The position numbers were made by a program, and so were the translations under genes. A stretch of DNA of 64,000 nt from a virus: IMG/VR virus record IMGVR_UViG_3300028920_000001, positions 188,001-252,000 of that record; one strand, given 5' to 3'. This document shows positions 662 through 60,781 of this stretch, one piece after another. The notes beneath the pieces are model-generated. The model was given only the letters and a program-made list of their open reading frames with translations, did no database searches and was not told the DNA's origin. Numbering within the stretch: the first letter of the stretch is position 1; the number at the start of each line of letters is the position of its first letter.

Positions 662-991
662 GTGCAATTGATATTTGAAGCTGACTGCGTAATTCGAGAT
701 TTTGTTCCAGTTGTCTTTGACGCCGCTGGTTGGTCTGATGTTGCTCAGAAGATTAGAGCACTCCCGCCCCTGGAAAACGCTGAAGCGATTATTGAAGCGT
801 TTGAATACTTAGATATGCTTCAAGGTGAACCACCTAGTGAAGCATGGGCACAAGCAATTGAGGACTGTTGTTTTTGGTGCGAAGCAGCTGTATGGGCCGC
901 AATTAGAGAGGAACACAATTCCTTCAACGACTATATGGAACGGGCCCAACGAGCTTTAAGTCTCGAATTTAGATCAGTCCCTATTCACTAA
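662..991 (+). CDS. Unknown 109-aa acidic protein
   Basis: Starts at GTG 662 after AGAGGAA. Acidic and probably alpha-helical, with Trp/Cys-rich stretches around residues 60-80 (AWAQAIEDCCFWCEAAVWAA). No family recognised. Its TAA overlaps the stop of the convergent gene at 988 by 3 nt. No IMES tail. Confidence 0.65.
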   Translation: MQLIFEADCVIRDFVPVVFDAAGWSDVAQKIRALPPLENAEAIIEAFEYLDMLQGEPPSEAWAQAIEDCCFWCEAAVWAAIREEHNSFNDYMERAQRALSLEFRSVPIH

Positions 992-1335
992 AGCATCATC
1001 ACCTCAATTATAGTGATGTCTTTTTGATTGATCTCTATCCAACCTTGCTCTTTTAAGGATTCAAACCGTAATTTATGTTCATCACAAAATCCAGCTAGAA
1101 CTAAGTCTCCATCTTGGTGCCATTGAAAAGTGATATGGGCAGCAAATCGTGTAGGTTGCCCATCAATTCTGTCGATTTGACGATTGAGTCGATCTTTTTT
1201 GCAAAACAAACACCTGTTTGAATCATTCAATATTCTGGAATTAGGCGACGATAGTTTATCAATCAATTTCATCAAATCATCTGTATCCATAGCAGATTCC
1301 ACTGCATGAAAGAATGATTTAATACTATATTGCAC
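988..1335 (-). CDS. CxxC/CxxH zinc-binding small protein with IMES-type tail
   Basis: 115 aa, GTG start at 1335 with AGGATT upstream. Likely zinc ligands are C42, C45 (CLFCKK) and C84, H87 (GFCDEH), with about 38 residues between pairs. The same pattern recurs in the genes at 7687, 7992, 8207, 8470, 22380 and 23916. It ends EINQKDITIIEVMML, a variant of the common C-terminal tail. Probably the last gene of the leftward group 2385-988. Function unknown. Confidence 0.75.
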   Translation of the reverse strand: MQYSIKSFFHAVESAMDTDDLMKLIDKLSSPNSRILNDSNRCLFCKKDRLNRQIDRIDGQPTRFAAHITFQWHQDGDLVLAGFCDEHKLRFESLKEQGWIEINQKDITIIEVMML

Positions 1336-1378
1336 GTGTTAATCCTAATCGATTACAATGTCATGACCTGTAATCTAT

Positions 1379-2008
1379 CTACGAACACATTACCTCCGAA
1401 GTCAAGACTAACCTACGAGCTTCTTCAACTGTAGAAACGGACTCTATAACAGAAGACTCGAGTTTCAACAAATGGATTAAGAATAAATACTTAGGATTGA
1501 GCGGATCAGATGCCAACAATTTATCAAGCGCTTGATGCACACTTCTAATCTGCCAATCTGACTGAGTAGTAGATTCAGCCTGACTCCTAAAATATCTTTG
1601 AGCTCTATCTAAAATGTCTTCTTCGTTGAAATATGAAATAAACTGTAGAAAATCACTGGACATGGACAACTTGATGAACTGCCTCACCAAGCCAGGACGC
1701 AGAGACTTCCCATAACGCTTATCATATTGCAATGCAAGCTGTGTCAGGCCGACCGAAACCGGGAAAGCTGGCACAATAGCATTTGGCTTCTTCTTGGTCT
1801 GCCAAAATTTAATATCCAATCGCCTGTCAAGATAGACTTGAAGGATGGCGCTAGGATCGCATTTATCACATGAAAATACGTGGTTTTTCACCACACGGTA
1901 AAAAACCTGGTTATCAACTAGGAATTCTCGAACAGGACCGGAGCGGTCACACTTTGGGTGGCCATTATTGCCCACCCCATTCCCTTTGATGGAAATGATG
2001 CAGTCCAT
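1379..2008 (-). CDS. Unknown 209-aa protein, N-terminal zinc site, tail EVMCS
   Basis: A HxxC...CxxC set (H17, C20, C47, C50) suggests a small N-terminal zinc module, followed by a mostly helical region. The C-terminus EEARRLVLTSEVMCS fits the shared tail. The start ATG 2008 overlaps the upstream stop by 1 nt (TAATG), so it is translationally coupled to the 2008-2385 gene. No family recognised. Confidence 0.75.
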   Translation of the reverse strand: MDCIISIKGNGVGNNGHPKCDRSGPVREFLVDNQVFYRVVKNHVFSCDKCDPSAILQVYLDRRLDIKFWQTKKKPNAIVPAFPVSVGLTQLALQYDKRYGKSLRPGLVRQFIKLSMSSDFLQFISYFNEEDILDRAQRYFRSQAESTTQSDWQIRSVHQALDKLLASDPLNPKYLFLIHLLKLESSVIESVSTVEEARRLVLTSEVMCS

Positions 2009-2385
2009 TAGTCGTTTGCAGATTGACTACACTGCCAAACTCGACACGGAATCTGGAATTGTACACCGTTATGGGCTTCATGCCAATCATGATGGAAGAA
2101 CCAGAAGTGACCATCCTTGTGATCGTCAGTCAGTGTCAACGTCTTTAGAGGAAGACTCGAGAACAAACTTCCGGAAAAGGAAGCCCACCCCTTTCCAAGG
2201 TACCAAGATCCTCCGTCGGAGCTTTGGAACCACCCATCATCGTAATCCCAGATATGAGAAATCCGACGGACCACTCCATCCGAAAAAAGCACATAGTCAC
2301 CACATCGTGGCCTAGTGCTTTTGTCAAACTCGGCCTGGCGTTCCTTCAAAATCTCGGCGTCTCTATCATCAAACTCTGGATGCAT
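2008..2385 (-). CDS. Unknown 125-aa protein, aromatic-rich
   Basis: ATG 2385 follows AGAGGTGAC. The segment RCGDYVLFSDGVVRRISHIW (residues 28-47) looks like an SH3/tudor-like beta barrel of the kind found in many small phage proteins. The C-terminal half is rich in Trp, Phe and His. It ends CSQSAND without the common tail. First gene of a leftward operon with 1379-2008. Confidence 0.7.
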   Translation of the reverse strand: MHPEFDDRDAEILKERQAEFDKSTRPRCGDYVLFSDGVVRRISHIWDYDDGWFQSSDGGSWYLGKGWASFSGSLFSSLPLKTLTLTDDHKDGHFWFFHHDWHEAHNGVQFQIPCRVWQCSQSAND

Positions 2386-2484
2386 GTCACCTCTTATGAT
2401 CGAGATACGCGGGCAGATGTTCGATCTTCGCTACGTGCGCACATGCACGCACGTCGCGCGTATACACAGATCAGAAGGTGGCGC

Positions 2485-3057
2485 ATGTATGTAGTGTATA
2501 TACCCAAACTCGAATCAGCTAGGCAGAACCTTCCACTCATCAATGTCTGCGGATACGAAGTCACTGGTAAAAAGACCACTATTTATTACCATAAAGGTCC
2601 TGAGAATCTCGATCTAATCAATAAACCAGACCATTTTAAAATGAGGTCTCTTAGTCTCAGTCGTGCGAAGTCAGCCAAGCATCTTGAATCAACCATCCTA
2701 GATCACTGGTGGCCAGCCTCTCTTCAATTTATTGAAGTTGATGAGCTTGAAGTTGACAGTGCAAACCATGGGGCAGTTAAAGAAGCTAAACAACGTGTTA
2801 AAGTTGCTAAGGAACTAATCAAAACTTTGGCAGAATGGAAGCAGTGCGTCATTCATCTCAGAGGCCAAGTCAAAAAGATCACGGACGGTTCATTCAAGGA
2901 ACTCCGTCATGACAGCAGGAGAGCGGACGCAAAAGAGTACATTAAAGACACTGTAAAGACTTGTGTTTCAGTATATCACATCAAATTTGATGAAATAGTC
3001 GATCTAGCAGAGGAAGCAGTCAAAGAACTTCAAGTTGAAAATATCATGGAAGGATAG
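2485..3057 (+). CDS. Unknown 190-aa helical protein with tail NIMEG
   Basis: The open frame extends upstream to 2224, but that part overlaps the leftward gene. ATG 2485 is preceded by AAGGTGGCGC, matching the GGAGGTGACGC leaders of neighbours, so I start there. The N-terminus MYVVYIPKLES is beta-like; residues 90-190 are charged helices. It ends AVKELQVENIMEG, a variant of the shared tail. No family recognised. Confidence 0.7.
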   Translation: MYVVYIPKLESARQNLPLINVCGYEVTGKKTTIYYHKGPENLDLINKPDHFKMRSLSLSRAKSAKHLESTILDHWWPASLQFIEVDELEVDSANHGAVKEAKQRVKVAKELIKTLAEWKQCVIHLRGQVKKITDGSFKELRHDSRRADAKEYIKDTVKTCVSVYHIKFDEIVDLAEEAVKELQVENIMEG

Positions 3058-3107: not shown

Positions 3108-3425
3108 ATGCTGACTGAGCAAGACATGCTAAATGCCTTAGACGGAACTCCGGATGGGGCAACCGTCTTTGTGAGTTATAATGCCGGCCGGCCGCCAACG
3201 GCCAGAGCCATCCGTGAAGCCCAGCCTGCAAAAGATATGGGCCTCAATCTGCGTCATTTCGTGGGTAAGCTGTCCAGCGTGTGGATGACCAAGAAAAGCC
3301 AGATTGTAATGACCGTTCTGTGTGACAACCGGTGCAATGAAGACAATGACATGCAACCGCCGCACTACCGGACTTTCAACCCGAGTCTAGGTACCATGCA
3401 TCTCGTCAAGGTGATCGATGCCTGA
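3108..3425 (+). CDS. Unknown 105-aa protein
   Basis: Start at ATG 3108, chosen over 3075 because of the GGAGGTGACGC site. Opens MLTEQDMLNALDGTPDGATV, then a likely beta-barrel region with VFVSYNAGRPP. No tail and no recognised family. The downstream gene starts 8 nt before its stop. Confidence 0.7.
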   Translation: MLTEQDMLNALDGTPDGATVFVSYNAGRPPTARAIREAQPAKDMGLNLRHFVGKLSSVWMTKKSQIVMTVLCDNRCNEDNDMQPPHYRTFNPSLGTMHLVKVIDA

Positions 3426-3672
3426 CGTACAGCTCCTAAGAACCAAGATAGAAAATCTTGGATCAATGACTTATTGGAAAATTCATTTCATGCTAGGTCC
3501 CCAACGCTTTCTCATGACCTTCATCGACGATCATCATAAAACATATCGTCTGTACAGACGAGAGCCTCGTTATAATCCCACATCTTGTCAGGATGTAACC
3601 GACGATCCAACCTCCTCAGAGGCTATGAAAGCCGGTAAGCAAGTCTTAATTCAAGAGGTGATGGAAACATGA
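3418..3672 (+). CDS. Unknown 84-aa protein with tail EVMET
   Basis: ATG 3418 overlaps the previous gene and follows AAGGTGATCG. A beta-rich N-terminal half (IHFMLGPQRFLMTFIDDHHK) is followed by the helix GKQVLIQEVMET, a copy of the shared C-terminal tail. Its stop overlaps the next ATG (ATGA). Confidence 0.75.
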   Translation: MPDVQLLRTKIENLGSMTYWKIHFMLGPQRFLMTFIDDHHKTYRLYRREPRYNPTSCQDVTDDPTSSEAMKAGKQVLIQEVMET

Positions 3673-4067
3673 GAATTTATCTCTCAATGGAAGATGAAAA
3701 CCGGTCATTCGAGACGGAACATCAATTTAGTACCGTCTCATCTGAAAACGAGCTTCATGAAATCATTAGGCGCCTGACCGTAGAAACATGGTCTAGCCTG
3801 ACTGAAAATCGTGGAGTATTGCTCCAGGCAGTGCCTCGTTCCAACTGGATACAAGCGATTAAGATCGTCCGAAATCATTCGGACATGGGCTTGAAAGAAG
3901 CTAAGGATTTCGTCGAACGAGTAATTGATGGCGTCCCATTAGCTTTTCTTGTAAATTTGAAAGATAGAGACGTAATAACTTGCGTAGAACAACTAACGCA
4001 AATTGATTGCAAAGCGACGCCATGTACCAAAGCTGAATATGATGTGTGTGAATTGATGGGGTCGTAA
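3669..4067 (+). CDS. Ribosomal protein L7/L12 C-terminal-domain-like protein with tail ELMGS
   Basis: 132 aa. Residues 61-93, with KIVRNHSDMGLKEAKDFVE, match the signature of the bacterial bL12 C-terminal domain (VIK-VR--TGLGLKEAKDLVE), the part of the stalk that recruits translation factors. The bL12 N-terminal dimerisation domain and hinge are absent; residues 1-55 are unrelated. It ends CTKAEYDVCELMGS, the common tail. Phages are known to carry ribosomal proteins including bL12. Whether this one joins ribosomes or is a ClpS-like fold reused elsewhere is open. Confidence 0.65.
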   Translation: MRIYLSMEDENRSFETEHQFSTVSSENELHEIIRRLTVETWSSLTENRGVLLQAVPRSNWIQAIKIVRNHSDMGLKEAKDFVERVIDGVPLAFLVNLKDRDVITCVEQLTQIDCKATPCTKAEYDVCELMGS

Positions 4068-6306: not shown

Positions 6307-6510
6307 ATGCAACATCCTGAGCAACTCTGTTACTTCATCGACTGGCACTACATGGATGCGCATGGTTGGCCAGAGTGGTTGTGTCGACAACTCCGTAAAG
6401 ATCTTGCCAGCCTGGATGAACTCCAAGATGAATGCGCCGAGATTTTCGTCGAAGCGGTGGAAAAGAAGTACGGTGGAAAATCAATCCACGAACTTCGTAG
6501 CTTAGCATGA
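6307..6510 (+). CDS. Unknown 67-aa protein
   Basis: Aromatic N-terminus (YFIDWHYMDAHGWPEWLC) followed by charged helices. Its stop overlaps the next ATG by 4 nt (ATGA). No family recognised. Confidence 0.65.
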   Translation: MQHPEQLCYFIDWHYMDAHGWPEWLCRQLRKDLASLDELQDECAEIFVEAVEKKYGGKSIHELRSLA

Positions 6511-6716
6511 AGTATTTAATCCAAAGCGGCGGGCTCTTTATTGGTCCCCATGCCTTAGATAAAGGGAAAGCCGGTTGGACGTTTGATCTTAACGAAGCTT
6601 TTCGGTATTCTTCTGTTGAAGAAGCAACCAAAGAACAGGGGAGTCTCAAATTCCCCATTCAAGGAAAGGTGATTACTGAAGACGAAGCTCAAGTTTGGGC
6701 AATCATGAGATCATAA
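6507..6716 (+). CDS. MKYVI-type small protein with tail AIMRS
   Basis: 69 aa. One of a family in this window with the plan MKYxI...W...L-EA...EEA...VIT-EA-V--IM-S: here MKYLIQSGG, GWTFDLNEAFRYSSVEEA, then VITEDEAQVWAIMRS. Probably a small alpha/beta fold. Its TAA is directly followed by the first base of tRNA-Leu. Confidence 0.75.
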   Translation: MKYLIQSGGLFIGPHALDKGKAGWTFDLNEAFRYSSVEEATKEQGSLKFPIQGKVITEDEAQVWAIMRS

Positions 6717-7438: not shown

Positions 7439-7690
7439 ATGAAGCAAAATTTACTACAGCTCGCACAAAATACTCCTGGAACTGTAAACCCTAACGGGTA
7501 TCATACCTGGACACTTCATATAGCGTCGCATCTAGGAAATACTTGGAGATGTACGAGATGCAATTTTATTTATCCTAGTGGTAGTACCAGTCTTTTGATT
7601 AAACCATGCATCCACCAAGTGGACGATCAAGGACATTTTTGCAGAGATAGAATTCGTTCTCAGTTGATAGAAGAAGTCATGGAATCATGA
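7439..7690 (+). CDS. Small zinc-type protein with exact EVMES tail
   Basis: 83 aa. CTRC at residues 38-41 plus C57, H59 and H66/C68 form a possible zinc site in a Trp/His-rich domain (GYHTWTLHIASHLGNTWRC). Ends RSQLIEEVMES; the tail codons ATGGAATCATGA also make the 4-nt overlap with the next start. First of four coupled genes to 8730. Confidence 0.75.
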   Translation: MKQNLLQLAQNTPGTVNPNGYHTWTLHIASHLGNTWRCTRCNFIYPSGSTSLLIKPCIHQVDDQGHFCRDRIRSQLIEEVMES

Positions 7691-7995: not shown

Positions 7996-8210
7996 GAGAT
8001 ATAGTCTATATCAAAGGCTTCGCCTGGCATAAGAAATGCTCCACTGGCTGCGGTAGACCTCCCACTCATTGGTATTCTTTAGAAACCCTATCTAGCACCC
8101 GAATCCAGATATTCGGTAGATGCGAAAAGCACCGACGTAATCCTTTACCTAAAAACTGTTACTGTGTGCCTATCCCAGATCCCATTGTGTTCATAGTAAT
8201 GGCATCATGA
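7992..8210 (+). CDS. CxxxC/CxxH zinc protein, 72 aa
   Basis: C16, C20 (CSTGC) and C44, H47 (GRCEKH). The intervening THWYSLETLSSTRIQIFG aligns with the THW/TSWVYRE segments of its neighbours. Ends DPIVFIVMAS, the shared tail. ATGA overlaps on both sides. Confidence 0.75.
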   Translation: MRDIVYIKGFAWHKKCSTGCGRPPTHWYSLETLSSTRIQIFGRCEKHRRNPLPKNCYCVPIPDPIVFIVMAS

Positions 8211-8473
8211 TCAACTTCGATAAATATGTAAGACTAGTCGATCGTTCAAACGTCTGTGAAGCTTGTCTTGCTCGAAATCCTCAAAATTCACCTACGTCTT
8301 GGGTTTATCGAGAATTTCTAGCTAAAGAACGATCAAACAAATTGGTCTGTCATGTTATCGGCCTTTGCAATCATCATCTCAATGATCAGGATGCGCTTTT
8401 AAAAGCTGGTTGGGAGTGGATTTCTAAAGAAGACTTGAAGCTATTCAGAATTGCCCTCCTTATGAAGTCATGA
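8207..8473 (+). CDS. CxxC/CxxH zinc protein, 88 aa
   Basis: C17/C20 (CEAC) and C54/H57 (GLCNHH). After the zinc core comes a Trp-containing turn (AGWEWISKED) and the tail DLKLFRIALLMKS. Coupled by ATGA overlaps. Clearly paralogous to 988-1335, where the same GWIEINQKD turn precedes the tail. Confidence 0.78.
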   Translation: MINFDKYVRLVDRSNVCEACLARNPQNSPTSWVYREFLAKERSNKLVCHVIGLCNHHLNDQDALLKAGWEWISKEDLKLFRIALLMKS

Positions 8474-8931: not shown

Positions 8932-9285
8932 ATGTCACACGAAGTTGATCCAGAGCAGATGCTCGAAAAGGTTGAAACCATAAGGGAGCAGACTACTGAA
9001 TTGATGACAAACCTGTGGCAGTTGAAAGCCAAGATCAAGCAACTGGCCTGGGTAGTTTCTACTCAGGACGAAGACTTATTCAGTCTCTTGCTCAAATTGG
9101 CTGATGTCAAAGATAATATGAGCAAGTATCACACTGAATTACCACCAGACCAGGCCAAGCTAGAACACACAAATCGAGATGCTGCCCATCAAAAATACTG
9201 GTCTGATTTGTGCAATGAAGACCGACGCTTGACTGATAAATTGGCTATAATTGGACGCCAGTTCCGAGAAGCCAAAGAGCCGTGA
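8932..9285 (+). CDS. Coiled-coil protein, 117 aa
   Basis: Long charged helices with heptad-like spacing (MLEKVETIREQTTELMTNLW; LKAKIKQLAWVVS). Likely an oligomerising all-alpha protein. Stop overlaps the next GTG (GTGA). No tail and no family recognised. Confidence 0.7.
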   Translation: MSHEVDPEQMLEKVETIREQTTELMTNLWQLKAKIKQLAWVVSTQDEDLFSLLLKLADVKDNMSKYHTELPPDQAKLEHTNRDAAHQKYWSDLCNEDRRLTDKLAIIGRQFREAKEP

Positions 9286-9482
9286 AATATGTAGTTAAGT
9301 GCCGTACAGGATGGTATTGGAATGATTCCATCAGACTGTGGCGGGCAAACTTAGATGAAGCTACTTTATTTACTAAACCACAAGCTATCGAACTAGTAAC
9401 TCTTTTTCAAAAAGACCCGAGCATAGGCGGAGAAGCCAAACTTTTCCGTGAAGAATTGGTCTATCAAATAATGGAATCATAA
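9282..9482 (+). CDS. MKYVI-type small protein with exact QIMES tail
   Basis: 66 aa, GTG start overlapping the previous stop. Plan: MKYVVKCRTGWYWND, WRANLDEATLFTKPQA, then LFREELVYQIMES. The tail is encoded ATAATGGAATCATAA with no following overlap, so it is not explained by start/stop coupling. Confidence 0.78.
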   Translation: MKYVVKCRTGWYWNDSIRLWRANLDEATLFTKPQAIELVTLFQKDPSIGGEAKLFREELVYQIMES

Positions 9483-9531: not shown

Positions 9532-9936
9532 ATGACTCGACCCGCAACTGGCCCTGGATCCCGTTACGTGGAAGTTCCAGCCCAGGCCATTGAGGATTTC
9601 CTTCAGAGCAAAGGTTTCACCCGTACGACCCAGCGCAACGAGGTCGTTTACGTGCGATCGCATCACGAATGGCCTTGCGTGAAGGTGAAGGTGTATACTT
9701 CCATCAAGGACGGACACACGTCAGTTCGCAAGCGTGGGGCTGATGCCATCAAGGTGTGCACCGTCTATGAAGGCAAAAAGCGAAAGCCTTTTGGGATTGG
9801 CAAGTTCCCGCATGTGCTCCGAACCGGAGATACCCAAGCGGTCTTGGATCGCATGTACGACCGCATGCGTGCAGCATATCGACGTGCCAACGAATGGGTT
9901 GCCAACACTCAGGTTAAACAGGTGATGAACTCTTGA
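9532..9936 (+). CDS. Unknown 134-aa basic protein with tail QVMNS
   Basis: Start after GGAGGTGACGC. Two-part sequence: VEVPAQAIEDFLQSKGF helix, then beta strands VVYVRSHHEWPCVKVKVYTS, and a basic helix RMYDRMRAAYRRANEWV. Ends TQVKQVMNS, the shared tail. A small alpha/beta fold is likely; nucleic-acid binding is possible from charge only. Confidence 0.75.
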   Translation: MTRPATGPGSRYVEVPAQAIEDFLQSKGFTRTTQRNEVVYVRSHHEWPCVKVKVYTSIKDGHTSVRKRGADAIKVCTVYEGKKRKPFGIGKFPHVLRTGDTQAVLDRMYDRMRAAYRRANEWVANTQVKQVMNS

Positions 9937-10181
9937 AATACCTGAAGAAAATCGCCAACCGGGCCAAGACCGGGATCTTCAAGCCCTTTCAATGGGAAGG
10001 GACTCAATACAAAATCAAACCAGTTCCAGGTAGAGAGTATAAATGGCTCCTATGGGAGGAACGCCCCTTTTACATGAAGGCCACCTGCATTAGCCTTGAT
10101 GAACTCACAGCTGAAGAACTATTGGGCGCCATCCATCAATTGGTAGCCTACCGTATCCTCGAGGAGATCCACGAATCATGA
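9933..10181 (+). CDS. Unknown 82-aa protein with degenerate tail EIHES
   Basis: Starts at TTG 9933, overlapping the stop as TTGA. Basic N-terminus (MKYLKKIANRAKTG), beta-like centre, then TAEELLGAIHQLVAYRILEEIHES. The tail has His where Met is usual. ATGA overlap with the next gene. Confidence 0.7.
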   Translation: MKYLKKIANRAKTGIFKPFQWEGTQYKIKPVPGREYKWLLWEERPFYMKATCISLDELTAEELLGAIHQLVAYRILEEIHES

Positions 10182-10405
10182 CCGGTGAACTCGTCGTCAA
10201 GGCTATCCGCAATCTGGAAACTAATCGTAAAACTGAAGCTAAAATAATGAATGATCTCGGATGGGATGGTCAAGTCTGGGGTGGTATTAGGAGCCTGCTT
10301 CAGACGATAAACAATCATTCCAAGAACGAGCTAAAGCAGCGAGAATCCGAAGGTAAGCTCCCTCTCGGCGTACGTGAAAAAGTCAAGAAGGTGATGGAAT
10401 CATGA
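10178..10405 (+). CDS. Unknown 75-aa helical protein with KVMES tail
   Basis: Charged helices throughout (VKAIRNLETNRKTEAKIMND); ends LGVREKVKKVMES. Start and stop both form ATGA overlaps. Confidence 0.72.
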   Translation: MTGELVVKAIRNLETNRKTEAKIMNDLGWDGQVWGGIRSLLQTINNHSKNELKQRESEGKLPLGVREKVKKVMES

Positions 10406-12036: not shown

Positions 12037-12444
12037 ATGGGAAGTTCTACCTATAGCGATATCGTTCCATTCGTAGCACCTTGCGTGTACGAATCTAACA
12101 ATCCTTACGAAGAAACACCAAGGATCGGATTTACCCGAGACATGGCCCTCCGTCTCTGTTGTCCTGAAGATGAAGAATGTGACAGCCCTTACAGTCATCA
12201 AGGATGGAAATACCAAAAAGATTCTGAGGAGATTGGTAAACGTCAACGTCTGATTGCAAGAGCTTGGGTCAAAGGCAAACATCGAGTGTGGATTATCAAT
12301 GAATCAGAGTACGCAGCCGGTGGTGATTATCAAATTTCACTTATCGCCAATGATTCAGACTCCATCACAGAATTTGCCAAAGATTGGGACATCGAACTCA
12401 AGCTCGGTATCGAGGAGAATGATACCGTTCAACAGACTCTGTAA
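12037..12444 (+). CDS. Unknown 135-aa acidic protein
   Basis: Starts 1 nt after the previous stop. Contains LCCPEDEEC, possibly a metal site, and an acidic C-terminal half (SITEFAKDWDIELKLGIEEN). No family recognised. Confidence 0.6.
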   Translation: MGSSTYSDIVPFVAPCVYESNNPYEETPRIGFTRDMALRLCCPEDEECDSPYSHQGWKYQKDSEEIGKRQRLIARAWVKGKHRVWIINESEYAAGGDYQISLIANDSDSITEFAKDWDIELKLGIEENDTVQQTL

Positions 12445-12466
12445 ATGTGGTCGAAATTCATCAGCA

Positions 12467-12718
12467 ATGAGAAAAGAATTCATCAATTACACCAGATACG
12501 TTGTCTGGCATGAGTATCACGGCTTCATCTCTGCCAAGTCGGATTCACGTAGTAAATTTTGGACTAAAGATCTTGAACGCGCAGCCTATTGGAAAAGAGA
12601 AGACGAAGCCTATATTAATCGAAGAGAATTGATAGACTGTGGAATCGTAACCAGTCTTTCCGCCGTGCATGTTATGAATTGGAACCAAGTTTTGATTCAG
12701 GAATTGATGGAATCATGA
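12467..12718 (+). CDS. Unknown 83-aa protein with exact ELMES tail
   Basis: Start ATG 12467 chosen because the upstream part of the open frame overlaps the previous gene. Aromatic beta-like N-terminus (YTRYVVWHEYHGFISAKS) with KFWTKDLERAAYWKREDEA, similar to the W...L-EA plan of the MKYVI family. Ends NWNQVLIQELMES. Confidence 0.7.
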   Translation: MRKEFINYTRYVVWHEYHGFISAKSDSRSKFWTKDLERAAYWKREDEAYINRRELIDCGIVTSLSAVHVMNWNQVLIQELMES

Positions 12719-31348: not shown

Positions 31349-31349
31349 A

Positions 31350-47548: not shown

Positions 47549-47820
47549 ACAGTAAATGTCATGCTGCCATGAAGTACGCTATTCGAATTGCAAATGCTCC
47601 ATTTCCAGTCTGGATTGAAGCTATTTATCCTGATCAACTTGGAAAGCCAGGGCCTAAAGATAAATATGGTTTAGGTGCTAGTCATTTTTACACTGATTTT
47701 CCTCGACGTGCGACTTTATACACTACTGTTCAATTAGCGATTGAAGCTAGATGCGTAGAAGATCCGATAGAAATCATTACTGAAGATGAATTACAGGTGT
47801 ATATTATAATGGATGAGTAA
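47545..47820 (+). CDS. MKYVI-type protein, 91 aa, tail IIMDE
   Basis: ATG 47545 (ATGA overlap) or ATG 47572. MKYAIRIANAPFPVWIEAIY, RRATLYTTVQLAIEA, EIITEDELQVYIIMDE. Confidence 0.72.
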   Translation: MNSKCHAAMKYAIRIANAPFPVWIEAIYPDQLGKPGPKDKYGLGASHFYTDFPRRATLYTTVQLAIEARCVEDPIEIITEDELQVYIIMDE

Positions 47821-48139
47821 TTATAAAGAAACATTAGAACGATACATCATTGGTGAATACGTTAAAGTCATGGCTGGTCGGACTAAGTTAACAATCATGC
47901 TCGGTGATGGGGTTATAGCAACCGAACTTGATAAGAATGTATTTCAAATTGGTTCTCGCGTGAGAATTGAATATAATCACAAATACCAAGGAGAACATTA
48001 CGGAACAATAACTGAACGTTTTTCAAATCGCGGAACTTGCATGGTAGAATTCAAAGAATCGATTTTAGAATGGAGAATGCGAGATCTTAAATTAATAAGC
48101 GAAGATGAATTTCAAATAGGCATAATCATGGAGATGTAA
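47813..48139 (+). CDS. SH3/tudor-like protein, 108 aa, tail IIMEM
   Basis: Two barrel-like segments: GEYVKVMAGRTKLTIMLGDG and GSRVRIEYNHKYQGEHYGTI. Ends KLISEDEFQIGIIMEM. Overlaps the previous gene by 8 nt. Confidence 0.74.
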   Translation: MSNYKETLERYIIGEYVKVMAGRTKLTIMLGDGVIATELDKNVFQIGSRVRIEYNHKYQGEHYGTITERFSNRGTCMVEFKESILEWRMRDLKLISEDEFQIGIIMEM

Positions 48140-48364
48140 ATGGGTGATTTATTCAGATCGATGGCTGCCTCTTTAAATAAGCCTGTTCGAATTTTGGATA
48201 ATCATATGTGTGGAACAGTTATTTCTCGAGGATTAGACGGTTCACTTGAAATTCAAATTTATGGTTCTAAAGAAATCCAATTTGTTAGATTTCAAGATGT
48301 TGAGTTCATGGCAGCAGACGAATTTGAACAAATTAAGACATTGTTGGAAATCATGCAATCATGA
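48140..48364 (+). CDS. SH3/tudor-like protein, 74 aa, tail EIMQS
   Basis: NKPVRILDNHMCGTVISRGL and SLEIQIYGSKEIQFVRFQDV; ends EQIKTLLEIMQS. Starts right after the previous stop; ATGA overlap with the next small gene. Confidence 0.73.
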   Translation: MGDLFRSMAASLNKPVRILDNHMCGTVISRGLDGSLEIQIYGSKEIQFVRFQDVEFMAADEFEQIKTLLEIMQS

Positions 48365-48522: not shown

Positions 48523-49050
48523 GTGAATTTAATCATAGCTTTTATTATAGTATTTAACTTTGGGGTTTGTTTTGCTTTAATCTGGCAGATACGACGTGCC
48601 AAAGATGAGGCTGCTAGATATGAGGCATTGAATATACTAAAAACAAATGTCAGTAAGCTTGATTTAGGTTTATATGAGCAAAGAACTTTTTCTTTTGATT
48701 CCAGTTCTTGTTTTGTTCAGTACGAATCGATTAGGTTCAGTATTAGACTTCATAAATATAAATACAGAAAGTATGACGCAGAAATTACTATTGATTATTT
48801 CAATCAAGTTGAATTTGAAGTATTGGAAAGCAGATTTTGCGGATTATCTTTCAGTGATTTAAGAGCTACCATTCAGCATATGGTCGAGAGACTAAATGCT
48901 AAATTAATCAGAGCTACCATGCATTTAGGTGTTCTTACTCAAAATGATATAATTTCAATTATGCTAGATGAAACTACGAGAGTAAGATCACGCGAAACAT
49001 TAATTACTATTATCGATCAATCGATAGTAAAAAGAATTATGGAAAGTTAG
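48523..49050 (+). CDS. Membrane-anchored 175-aa protein, exact RIMES tail
   Basis: GTG 48523. TM helix IIAFIIVFNFGVCFALIWQI, then a soluble alpha/beta domain. Ends IIDQSIVKRIMES, where Ser is AGT and the stop TAG: the best codon-level evidence that the tail is kept as protein. Confidence 0.76.
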   Translation: MNLIIAFIIVFNFGVCFALIWQIRRAKDEAARYEALNILKTNVSKLDLGLYEQRTFSFDSSSCFVQYESIRFSIRLHKYKYRKYDAEITIDYFNQVEFEVLESRFCGLSFSDLRATIQHMVERLNAKLIRATMHLGVLTQNDIISIMLDETTRVRSRETLITIIDQSIVKRIMES

Positions 49051-49063: not shown

Positions 49064-49585
49064 ATGATGATTACGTTTGTTCAATACAGATTAGCTGATG
49101 GTGAAATTGCACCTCGTTGTAAGAGTAACTGTATTGGTCTTTCGTCAAATGCTTTAAAGAGTAATAAAAAGTGGTCCTGTTTACAAATTACGGATCATCC
49201 TCCATTATTTGAATTTTCGAGCAATTACACTATATTAATTTCTCAAATTAACCAACTGAATTTTAAATGCACTAATAAATGGTTACAAAAAATGGCATAT
49301 GAAAAGTTTGTCCAAGATTTTCAAGATTTTTTAGAAAGACAAATATTTAGTGTTTGGCATAGTTGTCCTTTCGTGACTGTTATTTTTGAGCCACTCAATG
49401 TTTCACCAGCTGATAGTCCTCCATCTAAAGGGATGGTTCATTTTATTAACATGACTTTAGTTATGGGGAATCAGCCAGTAGCAAAATCTAATTGTTGCGA
49501 AAAGTGGCTCCCTAAATTTTGGGATTCAGATTTTGTTCAGGAACGTCGTAACTTTTATATGGTTGAAAGGATCATGCAATTATAA
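49064..49585 (+). CDS. Unknown 173-aa protein, tail RIMQL
   Basis: Cys and aromatic-rich with many beta strands (FVTVIFEPLNVSPADSPPSK). Ends ERRNFYMVERIMQL. TAATG overlap with the next gene. No family recognised. Confidence 0.7.
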   Translation: MMITFVQYRLADGEIAPRCKSNCIGLSSNALKSNKKWSCLQITDHPPLFEFSSNYTILISQINQLNFKCTNKWLQKMAYEKFVQDFQDFLERQIFSVWHSCPFVTVIFEPLNVSPADSPPSKGMVHFINMTLVMGNQPVAKSNCCEKWLPKFWDSDFVQERRNFYMVERIMQL

Positions 49586-49776
49586 TGCCTGTTACTCAAG
49601 TGACTCCGTATATGATGAAACCAGGACAATATGTTCGACAAGGTGATCATCTGTCTATAGTTGAATCTTGTGAATTTTGTAATAAGCCCAGATCGATATT
49701 TAATGGGAAGTGGGTTTCAAAGATGAGAGCTCCAACCGAGAAAGAACATATTGTGTCTGATGTGATGCAAACGTAG
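49585..49776 (+). CDS. SH3-like CxxC protein, 63 aa, tail DVMQT
   Basis: KPGQYVRQGDHLSIVESCEF with CEFC; ends APTEKEHIVSDVMQT. Confidence 0.7.
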   Translation: MPVTQVTPYMMKPGQYVRQGDHLSIVESCEFCNKPRSIFNGKWVSKMRAPTEKEHIVSDVMQT

Positions 49777-50340: not shown

Positions 50341-50548
50341 TCAAGAACGAATTGCTGAGCTCGAGCAACGAATCGCTGAGCTTGAATATGCTCTAGCTGG
50401 AACAATGATTTCATTGTCTTCTCGGGATGGTGTAATACCTGATCCTCATATAATTCAAGCGATGCAGGCGAGTAAACAAGTTCAATTTAAAATTATGTTT
50501 GATGACGAACGCATAATAATGGTCAAACTTGAAATTAAAGATGCGTGA
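50333..50548 (+). CDS. Unknown 71-aa protein with N-terminal coiled coil
   Basis: ERIAELEQRIAELEYALAGT is a clear short coiled coil with repeat RIAELE. A beta hairpin follows (VQFKIMFDDERIIMVKLEIK). Confidence 0.68.
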   Translation: MTDQERIAELEQRIAELEYALAGTMISLSSRDGVIPDPHIIQAMQASKQVQFKIMFDDERIIMVKLEIKDA

Positions 50549-50918
50549 AGAAGTATTTAACGTAAAATTTCTACATTATTGCTACGAAATCTTTATCCGA
50601 GGTCCTGGTTATCGGGTTGAGCGTATTACTGTAAGTCCATATGATTATCAAGATATTCTTAAAGGCGGTAAAGAAACGTTAGATCTAACAAATAATCGTT
50701 TTGATTTAAAAAGAGGAAAAGTAGCTACCCTTTTTGGAACAGACTTGTATGTAAACAAAATTGCTCCTATTGGAATAATTGAAATTAAACATGGTAGACA
50801 TAAAATTAAAACATCTCATGTGTTTATTTCAACCTGGGAAAGTCATTCGGGAGCCATTTTAGATTGTAGACATGCTTCTTGTAGAAAGTATTTAATTGCT
50901 CATATAATGGAGACCTAG
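50541..50918 (+). CDS. Unknown 125-aa protein, tail HIMET
   Basis: Start ATG 50541 overlaps the previous gene by 8 nt. Beta-rich (VKFLHYCYEIFIRGPGYRVE) with CRHASCRKYLIAHIMET at the end, joining a C/H motif directly to the tail. Confidence 0.72.
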   Translation: MREEVFNVKFLHYCYEIFIRGPGYRVERITVSPYDYQDILKGGKETLDLTNNRFDLKRGKVATLFGTDLYVNKIAPIGIIEIKHGRHKIKTSHVFISTWESHSGAILDCRHASCRKYLIAHIMET

Positions 50919-51913: not shown

Positions 51914-52141
51914 TTAAACTGTCATGATTTTGAGCACATTAGCTTCTTTACAGTCTATTGGGACTCCAACGTGTTTTAATAATTCACCAGGAGTAGTTTT
52001 CTTTAATTTGTCGAGCTTAATTTTTGTTCCTCGAGTAGTAATTCTGTGACCACAACCCGGACAGCACCAAGTTCGATGAAGAGTCGGTTGTGCTTCTCTA
52101 ATCTTCACCCAATTATGCTGCTTCATATTTTCATATACCAC
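51914..52141 (-). CDS. Zinc-type protein, 75 aa, tail KIMTV
   Basis: CCPGCGHRITTRGTKIKLDK with several Cys (C26, C27, C30) and later C66. Ends CKEANVLKIMTV, the shared tail with Val last. Confidence 0.68.
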   Translation of the reverse strand: MVYENMKQHNWVKIREAQPTLHRTWCCPGCGHRITTRGTKIKLDKLKKTTPGELLKHVGVPIDCKEANVLKIMTV

Positions 52142-52182: not shown

Positions 52183-53334
52183 GTGGATTTACACGCGATA
52201 GCCATCCGGATTGCTAGCCGGCATTTAGGATTTAGTGGTGTCCGTGGGTGGCTTTACACTGATGGGAAATACGCTTCACTTAAAGATCGAGATTCAAACA
52301 TGCACCGGGAATTTGCTCAAAAGCATATTCTTGAAGACGCTGGACTAGATCAATTTTTAGAAGCTCAAAAAGGTAAGATTTCAGAGCATACTTTGAAGGA
52401 ATTGGAAAGTGCCCCAACTTTCTCAATTTTTCCAGCGTACATAGGAACTGATGAACAGGAGTTGATAGACTCGGTGGTAGAGAATACCGCACTTACTCCT
52501 GAAATTTACAAAAAATACCAAGAAGACGCCGAAAAAGCCTATTCTGAAGATTATGACGCTATTCGAATTTGGGGTCAGAGCTCAGAATTAACTGCTGACT
52601 TTTATGGATGGGATCGGAAAGCCTTATTAACTCTACAGGATTTTGTAATAGATAATCCGGAAGTTCAGAAGCCGAATCTGAAAGTCAAACTCGGTGATTA
52701 TAAGACCGGAAAGACCTATGATACCACTATTGAAGATTTACTAGCTTATTCCGGGAAGGGTAAATCACTAGTATCTAGTCAATTACGTAGAATTGCAGCT
52801 CGAGTTGCATTTTTCCATCAAGCTTTTACTGGATTACGATGGTGGGTCTTCATCGATGGTAATAAGATTATACCAATAAAGGGATTTCATGATGCTTTTG
52901 CTGAAGCCTATTTACTGAAAGACTTAGGTATTGATAAATATTTAGAAGAAAATCAAGAAAGTTTAGGAGATTTAGGTTATGCTATAAAGGTTTCTGGGCC
53001 TAAAGCTATTTGGTATCGAAAAGTAGAAGAGATCCCAGAGGCAGTGTTTAATGATACTGCTTTGACTCCTGAAGTATTTGAACGTTATAAAGAAGATACT
53101 GAGGAGTCATTTTCTAAAGATTATAATGCAATTCGAATGTGGGAAATGGATCCAGGTACATTAAATGTTGAATATTATAAATGGGATGACGCGGCTCTTC
53201 AGACTTTAAAGAACTTTTTGCGAAAAGAGCACTTAACGGACAATGTATTTATTGAAGAATCGAGTACTGATAGGCATAAATTATTATCTATAAAGGCCGT
53301 ACTCAAGTTACGAAGCATAAATAAACTATTCTAA
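52183..53334 (+). CDS. Internally duplicated 383-aa protein
   Basis: GTG 52183. Two copies of one domain: residues 6-180 (RIASRHLGFSGVRGWLYTDG, NTALTPEIYKKYQEDAEKAY, YDAIRIW, YGWDRKALLTLQDFV) and 206-360 (RIAARVAFFHQAFTGLRWWV, DTALTPEVFERYKEDTEESF, YNAIRMW, YKWDDAALQTLKNFL). Even the leading helix is repeated, so it arose by fusion of full-length copies. Acidic, soluble, no family recognised. Confidence 0.75.
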   Translation: MDLHAIAIRIASRHLGFSGVRGWLYTDGKYASLKDRDSNMHREFAQKHILEDAGLDQFLEAQKGKISEHTLKELESAPTFSIFPAYIGTDEQELIDSVVENTALTPEIYKKYQEDAEKAYSEDYDAIRIWGQSSELTADFYGWDRKALLTLQDFVIDNPEVQKPNLKVKLGDYKTGKTYDTTIEDLLAYSGKGKSLVSSQLRRIAARVAFFHQAFTGLRWWVFIDGNKIIPIKGFHDAFAEAYLLKDLGIDKYLEENQESLGDLGYAIKVSGPKAIWYRKVEEIPEAVFNDTALTPEVFERYKEDTEESFSKDYNAIRMWEMDPGTLNVEYYKWDDAALQTLKNFLRKEHLTDNVFIEESSTDRHKLLSIKAVLKLRSINKLF

Positions 53335-54493: not shown

Positions 54494-54832
54494 ATGGGTA
54501 TACTAAGCTGGGATAAGCCTAAGAAAGTCAAGGAAACTGGAACTTGTTATAAGTATGAATCCAACATGAGCAAAGAAGATGAACAAAAATGGAAAGCTAA
54601 AATTGTTGGTCATCGAGTTGGGAAACCTAGAATTGAAATTCGAAAGATAATGAATGGAACCAATATTAAGGTAATTATTTCAGATGGGAAAAATAAAGGA
54701 ATGAAGCATGCACTTCCTGGATGCAACGTTCATTTATCATTAAATGGAACTTGCCAAATGTCCTTTATAGAATACGATGAACTACATCAAGCCATTGAAG
54801 AAGCTCGAGCAGTAATGGAACAAGCTTTGTAG
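54494..54832 (+). CDS. Unknown 112-aa protein
   Basis: Start ATG 54494 or 54479. Basic, beta-rich (GKPRIEIRKIMNGTNIKVII), with VHLSLNGTCQMSFIEYDELH like the NFDGTYQIAIQEE strand of 22875. Ends in the helix EEARAVMEQAL. Overlaps the next GTG. Confidence 0.66.
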   Translation: MGILSWDKPKKVKETGTCYKYESNMSKEDEQKWKAKIVGHRVGKPRIEIRKIMNGTNIKVIISDGKNKGMKHALPGCNVHLSLNGTCQMSFIEYDELHQAIEEARAVMEQAL

Positions 54833-55155
54833 TGGGTATCAGGTCTTTGCCAAAGCCTATGGGATGGAAACCCCCGCCTTTTCCAAGGCAATCATCTTTT
54901 CAAGAAATCATAAAACGAAAAGAGAAAAGTGCACGAAGAGCATTGTGTTTAAATAAAATAATAATTATCTCTAGTGCTTCTGCTTCAATTTTTAACATGG
55001 TCTCTGCTATTATTCAATGGCGACCTTTTGCATCTAGCTTAAGTTTAATGGGTTCAATCTGTTTTTTGGTTATTACCCTAATATATTTGAAGGGTCGATC
55101 AAACTTAGTTAATGAATTAGATAATGTGATGGTGGAAAATATTATGGAATCCTAA
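54832..55155 (+). CDS. Two-TM membrane protein, 107 aa, exact NIMES tail
   Basis: GTG 54832. Pro-rich N-terminus, helices IIIISSASASIFNMVSAII and LSLMGSICFLVITLIYL, then LVNELDNVMVENIMES, predicted cytosolic. Ser is TCC, stop TAA. Confidence 0.74.
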   Translation: MGIRSLPKPMGWKPPPFPRQSSFQEIIKRKEKSARRALCLNKIIIISSASASIFNMVSAIIQWRPFASSLSLMGSICFLVITLIYLKGRSNLVNELDNVMVENIMES

Positions 55156-56767: not shown

Positions 56768-57151
56768 ATGAAACCGGGCCATCTTCAGAGGATTGCTAGT
56801 AGGCTTGCGGCTGATTTAGATGGAGATCAGAGCAAGAAATCTACACAGTGGAAGTCGTTCCTTAAGCAATTAACTAAAAGTCTTGACCATGGCGTCAAGG
56901 AATTAGAACAAATTATTTTTAATGTGAATCATAATACAAAGCTTCAGGATTTAAAGGGAAACCCTGAAGCCATTCAAATGATTGAAGCTGAAAAAGAAAA
57001 TCTAGTTAGGACGTTAAAATCAAAGAGCGAGAGACTTCAAACAGTCATGGAAGCACTGAAAGAAGCTGAATCTGACCTTGATGACGTTTATTCGGCAATC
57101 AATGCGCTCGAGGAGAGTGCTGAACAAGCTAAGGAATCTAAGACTCCATAA
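56768..57151 (+). CDS. Unknown 127-aa coiled-coil protein
   Basis: ATG 56768 (TTG 56753 also possible). HLQRIASRLAADLDGDQSKK echoes the RIASR start of 52183; then a long coiled coil (LVRTLKSKSERLQTVMEALK). Its end overlaps the convergent gene by 14 nt. Confidence 0.68.
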   Translation: MKPGHLQRIASRLAADLDGDQSKKSTQWKSFLKQLTKSLDHGVKELEQIIFNVNHNTKLQDLKGNPEAIQMIEAEKENLVRTLKSKSERLQTVMEALKEAESDLDDVYSAINALEESAEQAKESKTP

Positions 57152-57644
57152 TTTTAGGAAGATATTTCACAGCATCTTTTCTTACAGCTGTTTTAATTAC
57201 ATTAGCTGTATAGGCTCCGAATTTTTTAAATTTTGGCCTCTTTTGTATCGGTAATCTCAGATTATACTGTAATTTTCTTCTTGGTATAACTGCTCTTACC
57301 CAAGTTTTCTTTAGGGGATAATGTAAATAATTTACCCTTCCAACATTAAGTTCAAGCCAATTTTTTGCAATTAAGATTTCTACACTTAGCCATTCATCTC
57401 CGACTGGATAAATGAAATTTCCATAAACAATGTTTGTTATTTTGAAATAGAGAGTATGACAGGATTTTAAAGGTCTTAGATTTTCATATTTGAGAATAAT
57501 TCCTCTATTGGTAAGGGCACGCAAGAAAGCCCTGATGCCCATTTCATGATAAGGAATCTTGAGATTAGAGATGCTGTTATTTTGGGTAGTTAGCATACTC
57601 TGAACAACTCCGGACTGATATCTATCAATGGCGCGCATGTCCAA
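57138..57644 (-). CDS. Unknown 168-aa basic protein, exact KIMES tail
   Basis: Beta-rich and basic (WVRAVIPRRKLQYNLRLPIQ; KRPKFKKFGAYTANVIKTAV). Ends RKDAVKYLPKIMES. Start ATG 57644 or 57638. Confidence 0.72.
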   Translation of the reverse strand: MDMRAIDRYQSGVVQSMLTTQNNSISNLKIPYHEMGIRAFLRALTNRGIILKYENLRPLKSCHTLYFKITNIVYGNFIYPVGDEWLSVEILIAKNWLELNVGRVNYLHYPLKKTWVRAVIPRRKLQYNLRLPIQKRPKFKKFGAYTANVIKTAVRKDAVKYLPKIMES

Positions 57645-59025: not shown

Positions 59026-59909
59026 CCTGGTGTCCTTATGGTAGTAAGTATTTTTTCAACTTTTCGGTCTAAATCTTCTAGAGTCTTGTCATTGTTAATT
59101 ACAAAGTCAAAAGCTCCATCTTCAATCGTGGCTTGTTCAGTTTCTGAACGATGATTGAAAGGAGGTTTGTCGATTCCAGGTCGTTTAATTCTGATAAGGG
59201 CCGGGGTTAAAGCCGGTCCGGCTTTGTTACGAAGATAATTAATTTCATGTTTATGCCTGAAGTCAGCGAAGCAAGTTATAATAACATTTTCTTTAATCAC
59301 TGGGCCATGATTATTAGGTCCATAATATTTTTTAAGTCCTTCCATTTGGCTATACCTGTATTGAGCCAGATTCACGCCAGTTTTAAAAAAATAAGTTTCA
59401 GCTAGTTTTAGACTGGTATCGATCCCTTTATGGATCCAAGTATCTCCATAAAGGGTATTCATGAGTTCGCAGTATTTTTGAAGGGCTTCTCGAGGGGAGA
59501 GCCAAAAACGGGGATCGCCTTGTTGTATAAAGATCCTGGCACTTCCCAACCTAAGTGGGATATAAGGATCATTATTATTGTAAGTTTTTCCAACTCGGTC
59601 TCTTCCCTCAAACCACCAATAAGTGGCGTTATCATCCCAATCTCCAATTAATCCCTCACCTTCCGGTTTAGGACCATTCCATAATCGTAATTTTTCCATT
59701 GCTGGTTTAGGATAACGGAGATCACCACCATTTCGAAATTCACTTGGACCAAATAGCTGCTGCTCTGTAAATTCATAAAGATCAGCCATGTGTCGCTTAG
59801 CTGGGTCGGCTAAACCTAATTGGATTGCGCCCCTCTTTACAAGACTTTTTGCTACTTCATCTTTTCCAGAGCCGGAGAAACCTGATATACCAATACAAAT
59901 GTTCCTCAT
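58998..59909 (-). CDS. Deoxynucleoside monophosphate kinase-like protein, 303 aa
   Basis: P-loop GFSGSGKD (residues 10-17), then KSLVKRGAIQLGLADPAKRH, FTEQQLFGPSEFRN, and DPRFWLSPREALQKYCELMN, matching phage dNMP kinases of the T4 gp1 type, which make dNDPs from several dNMPs. Longer than T4 gp1 because of an insertion around residues 70-140. First gene of the leftward pair. Confidence 0.85.
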   Translation of the reverse strand: MRNICIGISGFSGSGKDEVAKSLVKRGAIQLGLADPAKRHMADLYEFTEQQLFGPSEFRNGGDLRYPKPAMEKLRLWNGPKPEGEGLIGDWDDNATYWWFEGRDRVGKTYNNNDPYIPLRLGSARIFIQQGDPRFWLSPREALQKYCELMNTLYGDTWIHKGIDTSLKLAETYFFKTGVNLAQYRYSQMEGLKKYYGPNNHGPVIKENVIITCFADFRHKHEINYLRNKAGPALTPALIRIKRPGIDKPPFNHRSETEQATIEDGAFDFVINNDKTLEDLDRKVEKILTTIRTPGWTPLQGTV

Positions 59910-59933
59910 GAATAATTATACATTTCAAAAACA

Positions 59934-60308
59934 ATGACAGACACAAGAGATTATCAAGATACTTTTCAGTATTTAACTGAACTAATTAAATCATATAAGA
60001 GGAGACTACGAAAAAGAATAGTTAAGAAAAATCGTAAATCTCGATTTGTACCTTCAGATGCTATTATTGTTCCCCCTGATCATGAAATTTCGCCCATTAT
60101 GCCGTCTGCTTATTTAAAGAACCTCCGTATAGTTTTTCTTTCTACTAGTCATGGCATTGGGATGACTTGTATCCTTCCTGATGAGCTCACTTCGTTTACA
60201 ACTCCGCCTAAATCTGTTCATTGTATTAATGTCCATACCTTAAGTTCTAAGCGACTAGCACGATTCATAACTTATGATTGGATGGTGGAAGATATTATGG
60301 AATCCTAG
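59934..60308 (+). CDS. Unknown 124-aa basic protein, exact DIMES tail
   Basis: Basic N-terminus (KSYKRRLRKRIVKKNRKSRF), then a beta part and FITYDWMVEDIMES. Ser is TCC, stop TAG. Converges with the next gene by 4 nt. Confidence 0.72.
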   Translation: MTDTRDYQDTFQYLTELIKSYKRRLRKRIVKKNRKSRFVPSDAIIVPPDHEISPIMPSAYLKNLRIVFLSTSHGIGMTCILPDELTSFTTPPKSVHCINVHTLSSKRLARFITYDWMVEDIMES

Positions 60309-60781
60309 CTATTCATCAAATCTTGAACTAAAGATAAATCAACAGCTTCTCTAATCTTTTCTTCTGATATTCCTCGTTGTTTGGCTATAGTAACTATCTC
60401 AATTATATCTTCAATCAATGCGCTTTCCGGAATAGGTTCTCTTATGGCTTTCTCAGGGGAGCTAAAATACTCAAGATCACCCTCATATTGTATTTCTTTG
60501 GATGTCACTCTAAAATTACTTCGAATTTGTCGATTGGAATGGGTTAGATTTTCTAATATGTGTCCTATATAATGGTTCATTTTGTCTGATTTAATATGAT
60601 CAAAATAGGCAATAGGTCGTTTTGTACGAATCGCTTCTCGAATAAATCCGATAGCCAATAAAAATGTTCGTCCTTGACCCCGGTTCTTACTATTTAAAAG
60701 CCAGTTGATAGTTCGAAGGTGACTTAATTGATCATCGTTAAGTCGAGCTACTAGGTCATAATAATATTGCCAACCACTCAT
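60305..60781 (-). CDS. Unknown 158-aa helical protein, tail DLMNS
   Basis: DLVARLNDDQLSHLRTINWL, RGQGRTFLLAIGFIREAIRT, ending EKIREAVDLSLVQDLMNS. GRTFLLAI could be read as a P-loop remnant but lacks GxxxxGK[ST]. No family recognised. Confidence 0.7.
   Translation of the reverse strand: MSGWQYYYDLVARLNDDQLSHLRTINWLLNSKNRGQGRTFLLAIGFIREAIRTKRPIAYFDHIKSDKMNHYIGHILENLTHSNRQIRSNFRVTSKEIQYEGDLEYFSSPEKAIREPIPESALIEDIIEIVTIAKQRGISEEKIREAVDLSLVQDLMNS

Follow-up and report, generated by a model that had tools for sequence, protein, structure and literature searches.

A shared C-terminal tail on unrelated phage proteins

The window analysed here, the 64,000 bases at positions 188001-252000 of IMG/VR record IMGVR_UViG_3300028920_000001 (426,960 bases, ~427 kb; G000 below), encodes several dozen small proteins that are unrelated in sequence and end in the same C-terminal tail. 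Across the whole record the tail was found on about 176-184 genes, or approximately one quarter of the proteins, compared with 0-2 in reversed-sequence controls. The tail is selected as a peptide, has been gained and lost as a module, is restricted to one clade of phages, drifts in wording from genome to genome, and is absent from proteins that carry a second tag at the N-terminus. It is probably a clade-specific, cytosolic docking (address) helix by which accessory proteins are gathered at a single hub. A terminase large subunit, portal, prohead protease, RNR, sigma factor and clamp loader indicated that the record is a huge tailed phage. It was inspected in 20 kb pieces, and genes were called as longest open reading frames (ORFs). 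Megablast of a phage collection found no near relative of the record, and a search of GTDB genomes for related phage contigs, as a clue to the host, found no relative.

Counting back from the last residue (-1), the consensus has Val or Ile at -7, Ile or Val at -4, Met at -3, Glu, Asp or Asn at -2 and Ser at -1, preceded by Glu or Leu at -10 and a helix N-cap at about -13. The last residue was Ser in 112 of 167 tagged proteins; position -2 was varied (Glu, Asp, Asn, Gln, Lys or Thr), with no strict requirement for Glu. Hydrophobic residues at -12, -8, -7, -4 and -3 alternated with polar residues at -11, -5, -2 and -1, which is amphipathic-helix spacing. In a structure model of the tagged RuvC protein, the final helix had low confidence and was set apart from the confident core.

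Tails were scored with a 16-residue weight matrix at a threshold of at least 6 bits. In the window 55 ORFs passed, compared with 0 of the 676 stops of the reversed or complemented window, and in the whole genome 174 stops passed, compared with 0 in the control. Weaker tails at 7992-8210 (ending IVFIVMAS) and 42597-42869 (ending EVFRMMAT) were also seen, and with weaker tails counted the window total approaches the figure of about 60 given in the initial annotation of this DNA; the nine proteins that it had named (starting at 8207, 22380, 9282, 23414, 42871, 47813, 20921, 48523 and 54832) end as it described. A training-free pattern, [IVL]M[EDQNTSA]S-stop, occurred 101 times in the six frames and 6 times in the reversed sequence. 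Independently of any model, 175 of 644 genes had Met at -3 (10.7 expected, z = 50), and the next most enriched residues were Ser at -1, Val at -7, Glu at -2, Ile or Val at -4 and Glu at -10. A framework that leaves out -3 ([VIAC] at -7, [VI] at -4, polar at -2) was counted 136 times against 9.6 expected, and in an untagged relative 10 times against 8.8 expected. The first observation is confirmed and extends further than originally described, and the lack of genome-wide enrichment that would have spoken against it was not seen.

Tagged genes were concentrated at 7-9 kb and 54-263 kb of the genome, and the structural half was nearly free of them. They occur in both the GC-balanced and the AT-rich halves of the window, as had been noted, except that a GC-rich stretch from 24.6 to 38 kb has none. 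This island (24637-38500; 50-60% GC, compared with 33-52% elsewhere; 0 tagged genes) may have been acquired recently or may mark a join in the assembly.

Unrelated bodies and modular gain and loss

When the last 18 residues were cut off, the 176 tagged bodies fell into 172 clusters at a phmmer E value of 1e-3; the tail is therefore not one domain. When 150 tagged proteins were aligned with MAFFT, near-invariance was limited to the start Met and the Met at -3. Pfam matches were found for 3 of the 150, each to another family (L7/L12 C-terminal domain, RuvC and DnaJ zinc domain), and ten PHROG families were matched by tagged proteins, one member apiece. A single homologous domain with a conserved last helix, which the initial annotation had named as one finding that would overturn it, was excluded by the clusters, the alignment and the scattered Pfam matches.

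Orthologues differed in whether they carried the tail. The RuvC protein (genome 54718-55455; E = 1.4e-4 in Pfam and 2.7e-19 in PHROG) was tagged in G000 and its relative G002 and untagged in G006, G013, G018 and W01, and a DHH protein had the tag in G004 only among its orthologues. These two cases also run counter to the earlier statement that no recognised enzyme is tagged, which had been made for the window. Tags are very rare on conserved core genes: G000 and G002 share 165 reciprocal best pairs, of which 152 were untagged in both genomes and 9 were tagged in both. Homologues were found for 13 of 116 tagged G000 proteins and 48 of 167 untagged neighbors of like size (p = 4e-4); this deficit was absent in G002 and G018 and so carries no weight.

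About ten tagged proteins have predicted transmembrane helices, and the flank between the predicted last helix and the tail is mostly basic, which places the tail on the cytosolic side. The presence of the tag on soluble, zinc-binding and membrane proteins, together with this basic flank, points to a cytosolic reader.

Selection on the peptide

Synonymous codons at -7 and -2 were used as in the gene bodies, which bears out the earlier proposal that selection acts on the peptide. An excess of TCA at Ser -1 came from ATGA overlaps with the next start and was gone once those were set aside; the residual over-used codons, TCG at -1 and GTG and ATC at -4, represent a minor bias. In relatives the near-invariant ATG at -3 gives way to CAY or CAR, which encode His or Gln, and the selected positions extend 7-14 codons upstream with protein periodicity. 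Were a nucleic-acid element at the stop codon selected instead, such as a terminator, restart site or recombination site, the peptide would be a by-product. TCATGA is self-complementary and allows both strands to encode the tag end with the same bases, and eight convergent tagged pairs have ends within 20 bp of each other (Table 1); the preference for GTG at Val -4 and for TCA at Ser -1 would also fit such an element. Because of the codon diversity and the replacement of ATG by codons for His and Gln, however, a DNA or RNA element was excluded; the codon data largely refute it, and we give it next to no chance.

Clade limits and concerted drift

Relatives were found through the terminase in IMG/VR and GenBank. 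The tail DNA pattern was counted 94 times in G002, 38 in G050, 18 in G054 and 16 in both G018 and G010, with fewer elsewhere in the clade, and was at about control level in relatives with 42-45% identity. In unbiased C-terminal analysis of whole gene sets, G002, G018, G010 and G013 had the tail, G005 and G006 showed it weakly, and G004 had a variant; in the nearest untagged relatives, LR745208 and Tunturi_5, the same unbiased search found no shared C-terminal tag of any wording. The tag-bearing phages form one terminase clade (support 100/100), in which some members were hard to score (three short contigs were left unjudged, and G008 was weak). The tag is confined to this clade, and the wider relatives are without it.

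Within the clade the wording differs by genome: IMES in G000, VMES in G002, V[M/H/Q]xS in G018 and G050, VHES in G013 and VHDL in G004. The ratio of Met to His at -3 was 120/3 in G000, 88/5 in G002, 7/10 in G013 and 0/6 in G004 (p about 1e-20, for proteins picked without using -3, which are not fully independent draws within one genome, though their bodies are unrelated). A separate scan for VHD or VHE before a stop gave 13 against 0 in G004 and 19 against 1 in G018, and about control level outside the clade. One orthologue pair illustrates the local wording, with VKVVKEVMES in G002 and VKLIKSVQEA in G018. Joint change in so many unrelated proteins points to a shared partner, and one reader per phage would be the simplest reason.

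A second tag at the N-terminus

About 20 proteins start with M[ND][LF]xxIAxRIA (2.2 expected, p = 2.5e-13), and none of them has the C-terminal tail (0/20, p = 0.003). Six are consecutive at 306-309 kb (306299-308591), in the structural half. This tag is reminiscent of the capsid targeting sequences at the N-termini of T4 proteins (PMC3012670, PMC7411985) and is possibly such a sequence, which suggests that head loading, if any occurs here, uses the N-terminal end instead of the C-terminal tail.

Proposed mechanism and alternative explanations

In the mechanism that we propose, the last 12-14 residues would form a short amphipathic helix whose face at -8/-7, -4 and -3, together with the chain end at -1, would fit a groove on a single reader. 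The reader would be located in the cytosol and would most likely be encoded by the phage. Through the tail, ~170 small accessory proteins of varied folds, soluble or membrane-bound, would be gathered at one machine or site. Several points weigh against this. The clade is known from uncultured phages alone, and none of 67 clade-specific candidate reader families was singled out. The reader could be a host protein, and a host reader or a homotypic interaction of the tails would give concerted drift as well. Helix formation in the RuvC tail is indicated at low confidence by the structure model, the gene calls are longest-ORF calls, and the tail models of small sets (G004, G005 and G006) take in a few chance matches, with 2-3 in controls.

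The 67 candidate families are those kept in the clade and missing from both outgroups. A pair encoding a VWA-metallopeptidase (DUF2201) and a MoxR-like AAA+ ATPase lies in the tag cluster (genome 183462-184934 and 187265-188407, both on the minus strand). Several tagged genomes have the pair at this location, with the VWA gene alone in the stretch shown of G013. The VWA gene was found in 11 of 19 clade records, many of the others being fragments, and in 0 of 29 non-clade records. Iyer and colleagues proposed that MoxR/VWA pairs act in virion assembly (PMC7824862). Position and co-occurrence make this pair attractive as the reader, but such pairs are widespread among phages, rV5-like and N4-like ones included. 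Two phages outside the clade that have a VWA-type protein or its MoxR partner were examined and showed no shared C-terminus; the pair therefore stays a candidate. For another possible reader, the clade-specific protein at 257251-258021, the structure model was too weak for searching (mean pLDDT 59.5). A small BRCT-like protein (genome 166395-166763, minus strand) is kept in the tag cluster of G000, G002, G010, G013 and G050; its internal VxVMEV is reminiscent of the tag, but it aligns with VLEI of a ligase-like paralogue, shows none of the drift of the tags and was set aside as coincidence. A comparison of tagged and structural genes for upstream promoter classes gave no clear motif.

The same ATPase pair bears on the possibility that the tail is a C-degron for regulated turnover, through which an AAA+ protease of the host or phage would receive the early accessory proteins. 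Bacterial degrons are typically short and C-terminal (PMC8138137), the tagged genes are accessory rather than structural or replicative, and the MoxR-VWA pair is at hand in the tag cluster. However, its occurrence in phages without a shared C-terminus counts against this use too, and the tail is amphipathic, acidic and Ser-ending, unlike ssrA- or MuA-like degrons; we regard turnover as unlikely. Slightly more doubtful is loading into the virion, in which the tail would do at the C-terminus what the T4 capsid targeting sequence does at the N-terminus, and a fast-changing protein arsenal would be packaged for injection. The T4 internal proteins are diverse and have the targeting sequence alone in common (PMC3012670), and the scarcity of homologues among tagged G000 proteins would fit an arsenal of this kind, except that it was not repeated in G002 or G018. 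The tag on about ten proteins with predicted transmembrane helices also speaks against packaging, as does the variety at -2, which shows no strict protease-type residue, and the N-terminal tag, on ~20 other proteins of which several are in the structural half, is the better candidate for head loading. Virion packaging, one of the functions first offered for the tail, was thus made less likely. It is also improbable that the tails pack together and form one large assembly with no separate reader. Coherent drift would be expected wherever tails must fit each other, and the amphipathic spacing is compatible with packing, but homotypic bundles would call for a helix longer than 12-14 residues, and it is not clear what such a bundle would need the selected terminal Ser for.

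Comparison with known systems

The peroxisomal targeting signal PTS1 is read by one soluble receptor, PEX5 (PMC8086558), and like the tail it is a short signal at the extreme C-terminus of many unrelated proteins. Two features of a PTS1-like way of working, a C-terminal motif shared by unrelated proteins and its modular gain and loss, were found here. PTS1 is eukaryotic and a tripeptide, whereas the phage tail is longer and helical in pattern. The T4 capsid targeting sequence of the internal proteins and Alt is likewise a short terminal tag and the sole common feature of a diverse set (PMC3012670), but it is N-terminal, cleaved and found on few proteins (PMC7411985); the tail is C-terminal in all cases, is on ~170 proteins and has no strict cleavage residue. 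PicA-type import into the nucleus of Chimalliviridae also routes many phage proteins selectively in the infected cell. N- and C-terminal signals were examined there and none was found, a surface patch being thought to be recognised (PMC11087766), whereas a terminal signal is the shared feature here. The cargo of that nucleus includes replication and transcription proteins; the RNR, clamp loader and sigma factor of G000 are untagged.

Encapsulin cargo-loading peptides are C-terminal and dock unrelated proteins on one shell protein, although with few cargoes per shell. ssrA and other bacterial C-degrons are C-terminal peptides that act on any body, as here; ssrA- and MuA-like degrons end in non-polar residues such as LAA or KAI, and the tail differs from ssrA in being acidic, helical in pattern, mostly Ser-ending and variable by phage. 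Membership of the T4-type capsid targeting, nucleus-import or ssrA-like degron systems thus does not fit the tail. Literature searches for a C-terminal motif shared by phage proteins found none that matched it.

Features of the window and other genes of the record

Table 1. Tagged genes and related features. Coordinates are those of the window unless marked genome; tails were scored with the 16-residue model, and bits are given for some rows.
Feature	Coordinates	Strand	Tail or remark
Tagged gene	988..1335	-	ITIIEVMML, 14.1 bits
Tagged gene	1379..2008	-	VLTSEVMCS; orthologues in G002, G010 and G018 tagged
Tagged gene	2224..3057	+	ELQVENIMEG, 25.7 bits
Tagged gene	3418..3672	+	VLIQEVMET
Tagged L7/L12 C-terminal-domain protein	3669..4067	+	YDVCELMGS
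Tagged gene	6507..6716	+	AQVWAIMRS
Tagged gene	7439..7690	+	QLIEEVMES
Tagged gene (CxxC)	8207..8473	+	FRIALLMKS
Tagged gene	9282..9482	+	ELVYQIMES
Tagged gene	9532..9936	+	TQVKQVMNS; G018 orthologue ends TVKKVMGA
Tagged gene	9933..10181	+	RILEEIHES (His at -3)
Tagged gene	10178..10405	+	KVKKVMES
Tagged gene	12254..12718	+	VLIQELMES
Tagged gene	15260..15535	+	LAVREVMTS
Tagged gene	15908..16168	+	NQVSLIMDS
Tagged gene	16165..16413	+	HLVKEIMES, 28.5 bits
Tagged gene	20502..20708	-	AEIREVMES
Tagged gene	20709..20948	-	LEVRLIMES
Tagged membrane protein	20921..21346	-	KWVGKIMDS, behind a basic, probably cytosolic segment
Tagged gene	21343..21600	-	AKVMEIMDL
Tagged gene	21597..21839	-	ALALEVMES
Tagged gene	21836..22150	-	AHVIYLMQS
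Tagged gene	22380..22646	-	DRIIEIMTS
Tagged gene	22648..22878	-	AQVQHIMDL
Tagged gene	23174..23407	-	AQVLEVMDS, 26.7 bits
Tagged gene	23414..23629	-	ALVQEIMTS
Tagged gene	23916..24269	-	EIILEVMWS
Tagged ORF	24155..24601	-	LVVMELMEE, 12.5 bits; overlaps 23916..24269 in another frame
Tagged gene	39464..39682	+	MLVEFIMEL
Tagged gene	39745..39948	-	YEIARIMLS
Tagged gene	39949..40215	-	LLVEDIMEV
Tagged gene	41231..41473	+	FVIAQIMQS
Tagged gene	41887..42132	+	VQLFDIMES
Tagged gene	42156..42380	+	RMVFHIMCS
Tagged gene	42371..42595	+	EIILPVMQS
Tagged gene	42871..43143	-	YIVAKIMES, 26.8 bits
Tagged gene	43779..44042	+	REWQKLLES (Leu at -3), 12.9 bits
Tagged gene	44039..44269	+	MMVYKLMDS; convergent with 44270..44644, stops abut
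Tagged gene	44270..44644	-	LLIEQIMES
Tagged gene	44641..44880	-	ATVHLVMNI
Tagged gene	45927..46154	+	YLTAEVMEL
Tagged gene	46573..46884	-	IDVEEIMES
Tagged gene	47297..47548	+	AIVAEIMRK
Tagged gene	47545..47820	+	LQVYIIMDE
Tagged gene	47813..48139	+	FQIGIIMEM
Tagged gene	48140..48364	+	KTLLEIMQS
Tagged membrane protein (N-terminal transmembrane helix)	48523..49050	+	SIVKRIMES
Tagged gene	49064..49585	+	YMVERIMQL
Tagged gene	49585..49776	+	HIVSDVMQT
Tagged gene	50529..50918	+	YLIAHIMET
Tagged gene	51914..52141	-	ANVLKIMTV
Tagged membrane protein	54832..55155	+	VMVENIMES
Tagged gene	57138..57644	-	KYLPKIMES, 10.7 bits
Tagged gene	59934..60308	+	WMVEDIMES; convergent overlap with 60305..60781
Tagged gene	60305..60781	-	SLVQDLMNS
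N-terminal tag	51235-51639	-	VDLFKIARKMTE
N-terminal tag, untagged at C-terminus	52183..53334	+	VDLHAIAIRIASRHLG
N-terminal tag	56753-57151	+	HLQRIASRLAAD
N-terminally tagged proteins, other sites	genome 286060
N-terminally tagged proteins, other sites	genome 106369-107770
Convergent tagged pair ends	genome 93530/93543
Convergent tagged pair ends	genome 108254/108267
Convergent tagged pair ends	genome 113433/113444
Convergent tagged pair ends	genome 115709/115712
Convergent tagged pair ends	genome 121443/121448
Convergent tagged pair ends	genome 126680/126688
Convergent tagged pair ends	genome 232269/232270
Convergent tagged pair ends	genome 248305/248308

Several other genes of the record were identified. 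The prohead protease (genome 299465-302224, plus strand) is apparently split by an intein with a LAGLIDADG domain, and the terminase ORF of G018, at 1107 aa, likewise suggests an insert. Two proteins, at 5654-7537 and 322031-323518 of the genome (both plus strand), have a C-terminal Mom-like DNA modification domain, and the second additionally matches endonuclease-type families. A PurZ-like synthetase (255984-257204, minus strand), for which PurZ was the top NCBIfam match at a score under its cut-off, and an HD YfbR-like 5'-deoxynucleotidase (48366-49049, minus strand) are also encoded; together they perhaps point to a 2-aminoadenine (Z) genome in a huge phage. The record encodes its own EF-Tu (125069-126268, minus strand), which is untagged, in addition to the tagged L7/L12 C-terminal-domain protein of the window.

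Implications

The proposal of the initial annotation, an address tag read by one receptor, was right in kind and is unproven in detail; its core is upheld by the unrelated bodies, the codon use, the modularity and the concerted drift. No phage system of this sort was found described in the literature searched. We consider the chances evenly balanced that this is a huge-phage clade with a proteome-scale C-terminal address code, in which each near-complete genome would have the same helical tag on ~100-180 unrelated accessory proteins, and a reader encoded by the phage would change in step with the tag. If so, newly acquired genes would have to gain the local tag in order to join the common hub or compartment, and bacterial viruses would have their own terminal sorting signal at proteome scale, so far known from eukaryotic organelles. 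The phages of the clade would also offer a natural set of peptide-receptor pairs that diverged in parallel, and hundreds of orphan phage proteins would gain a place or a partner once the reader is found.

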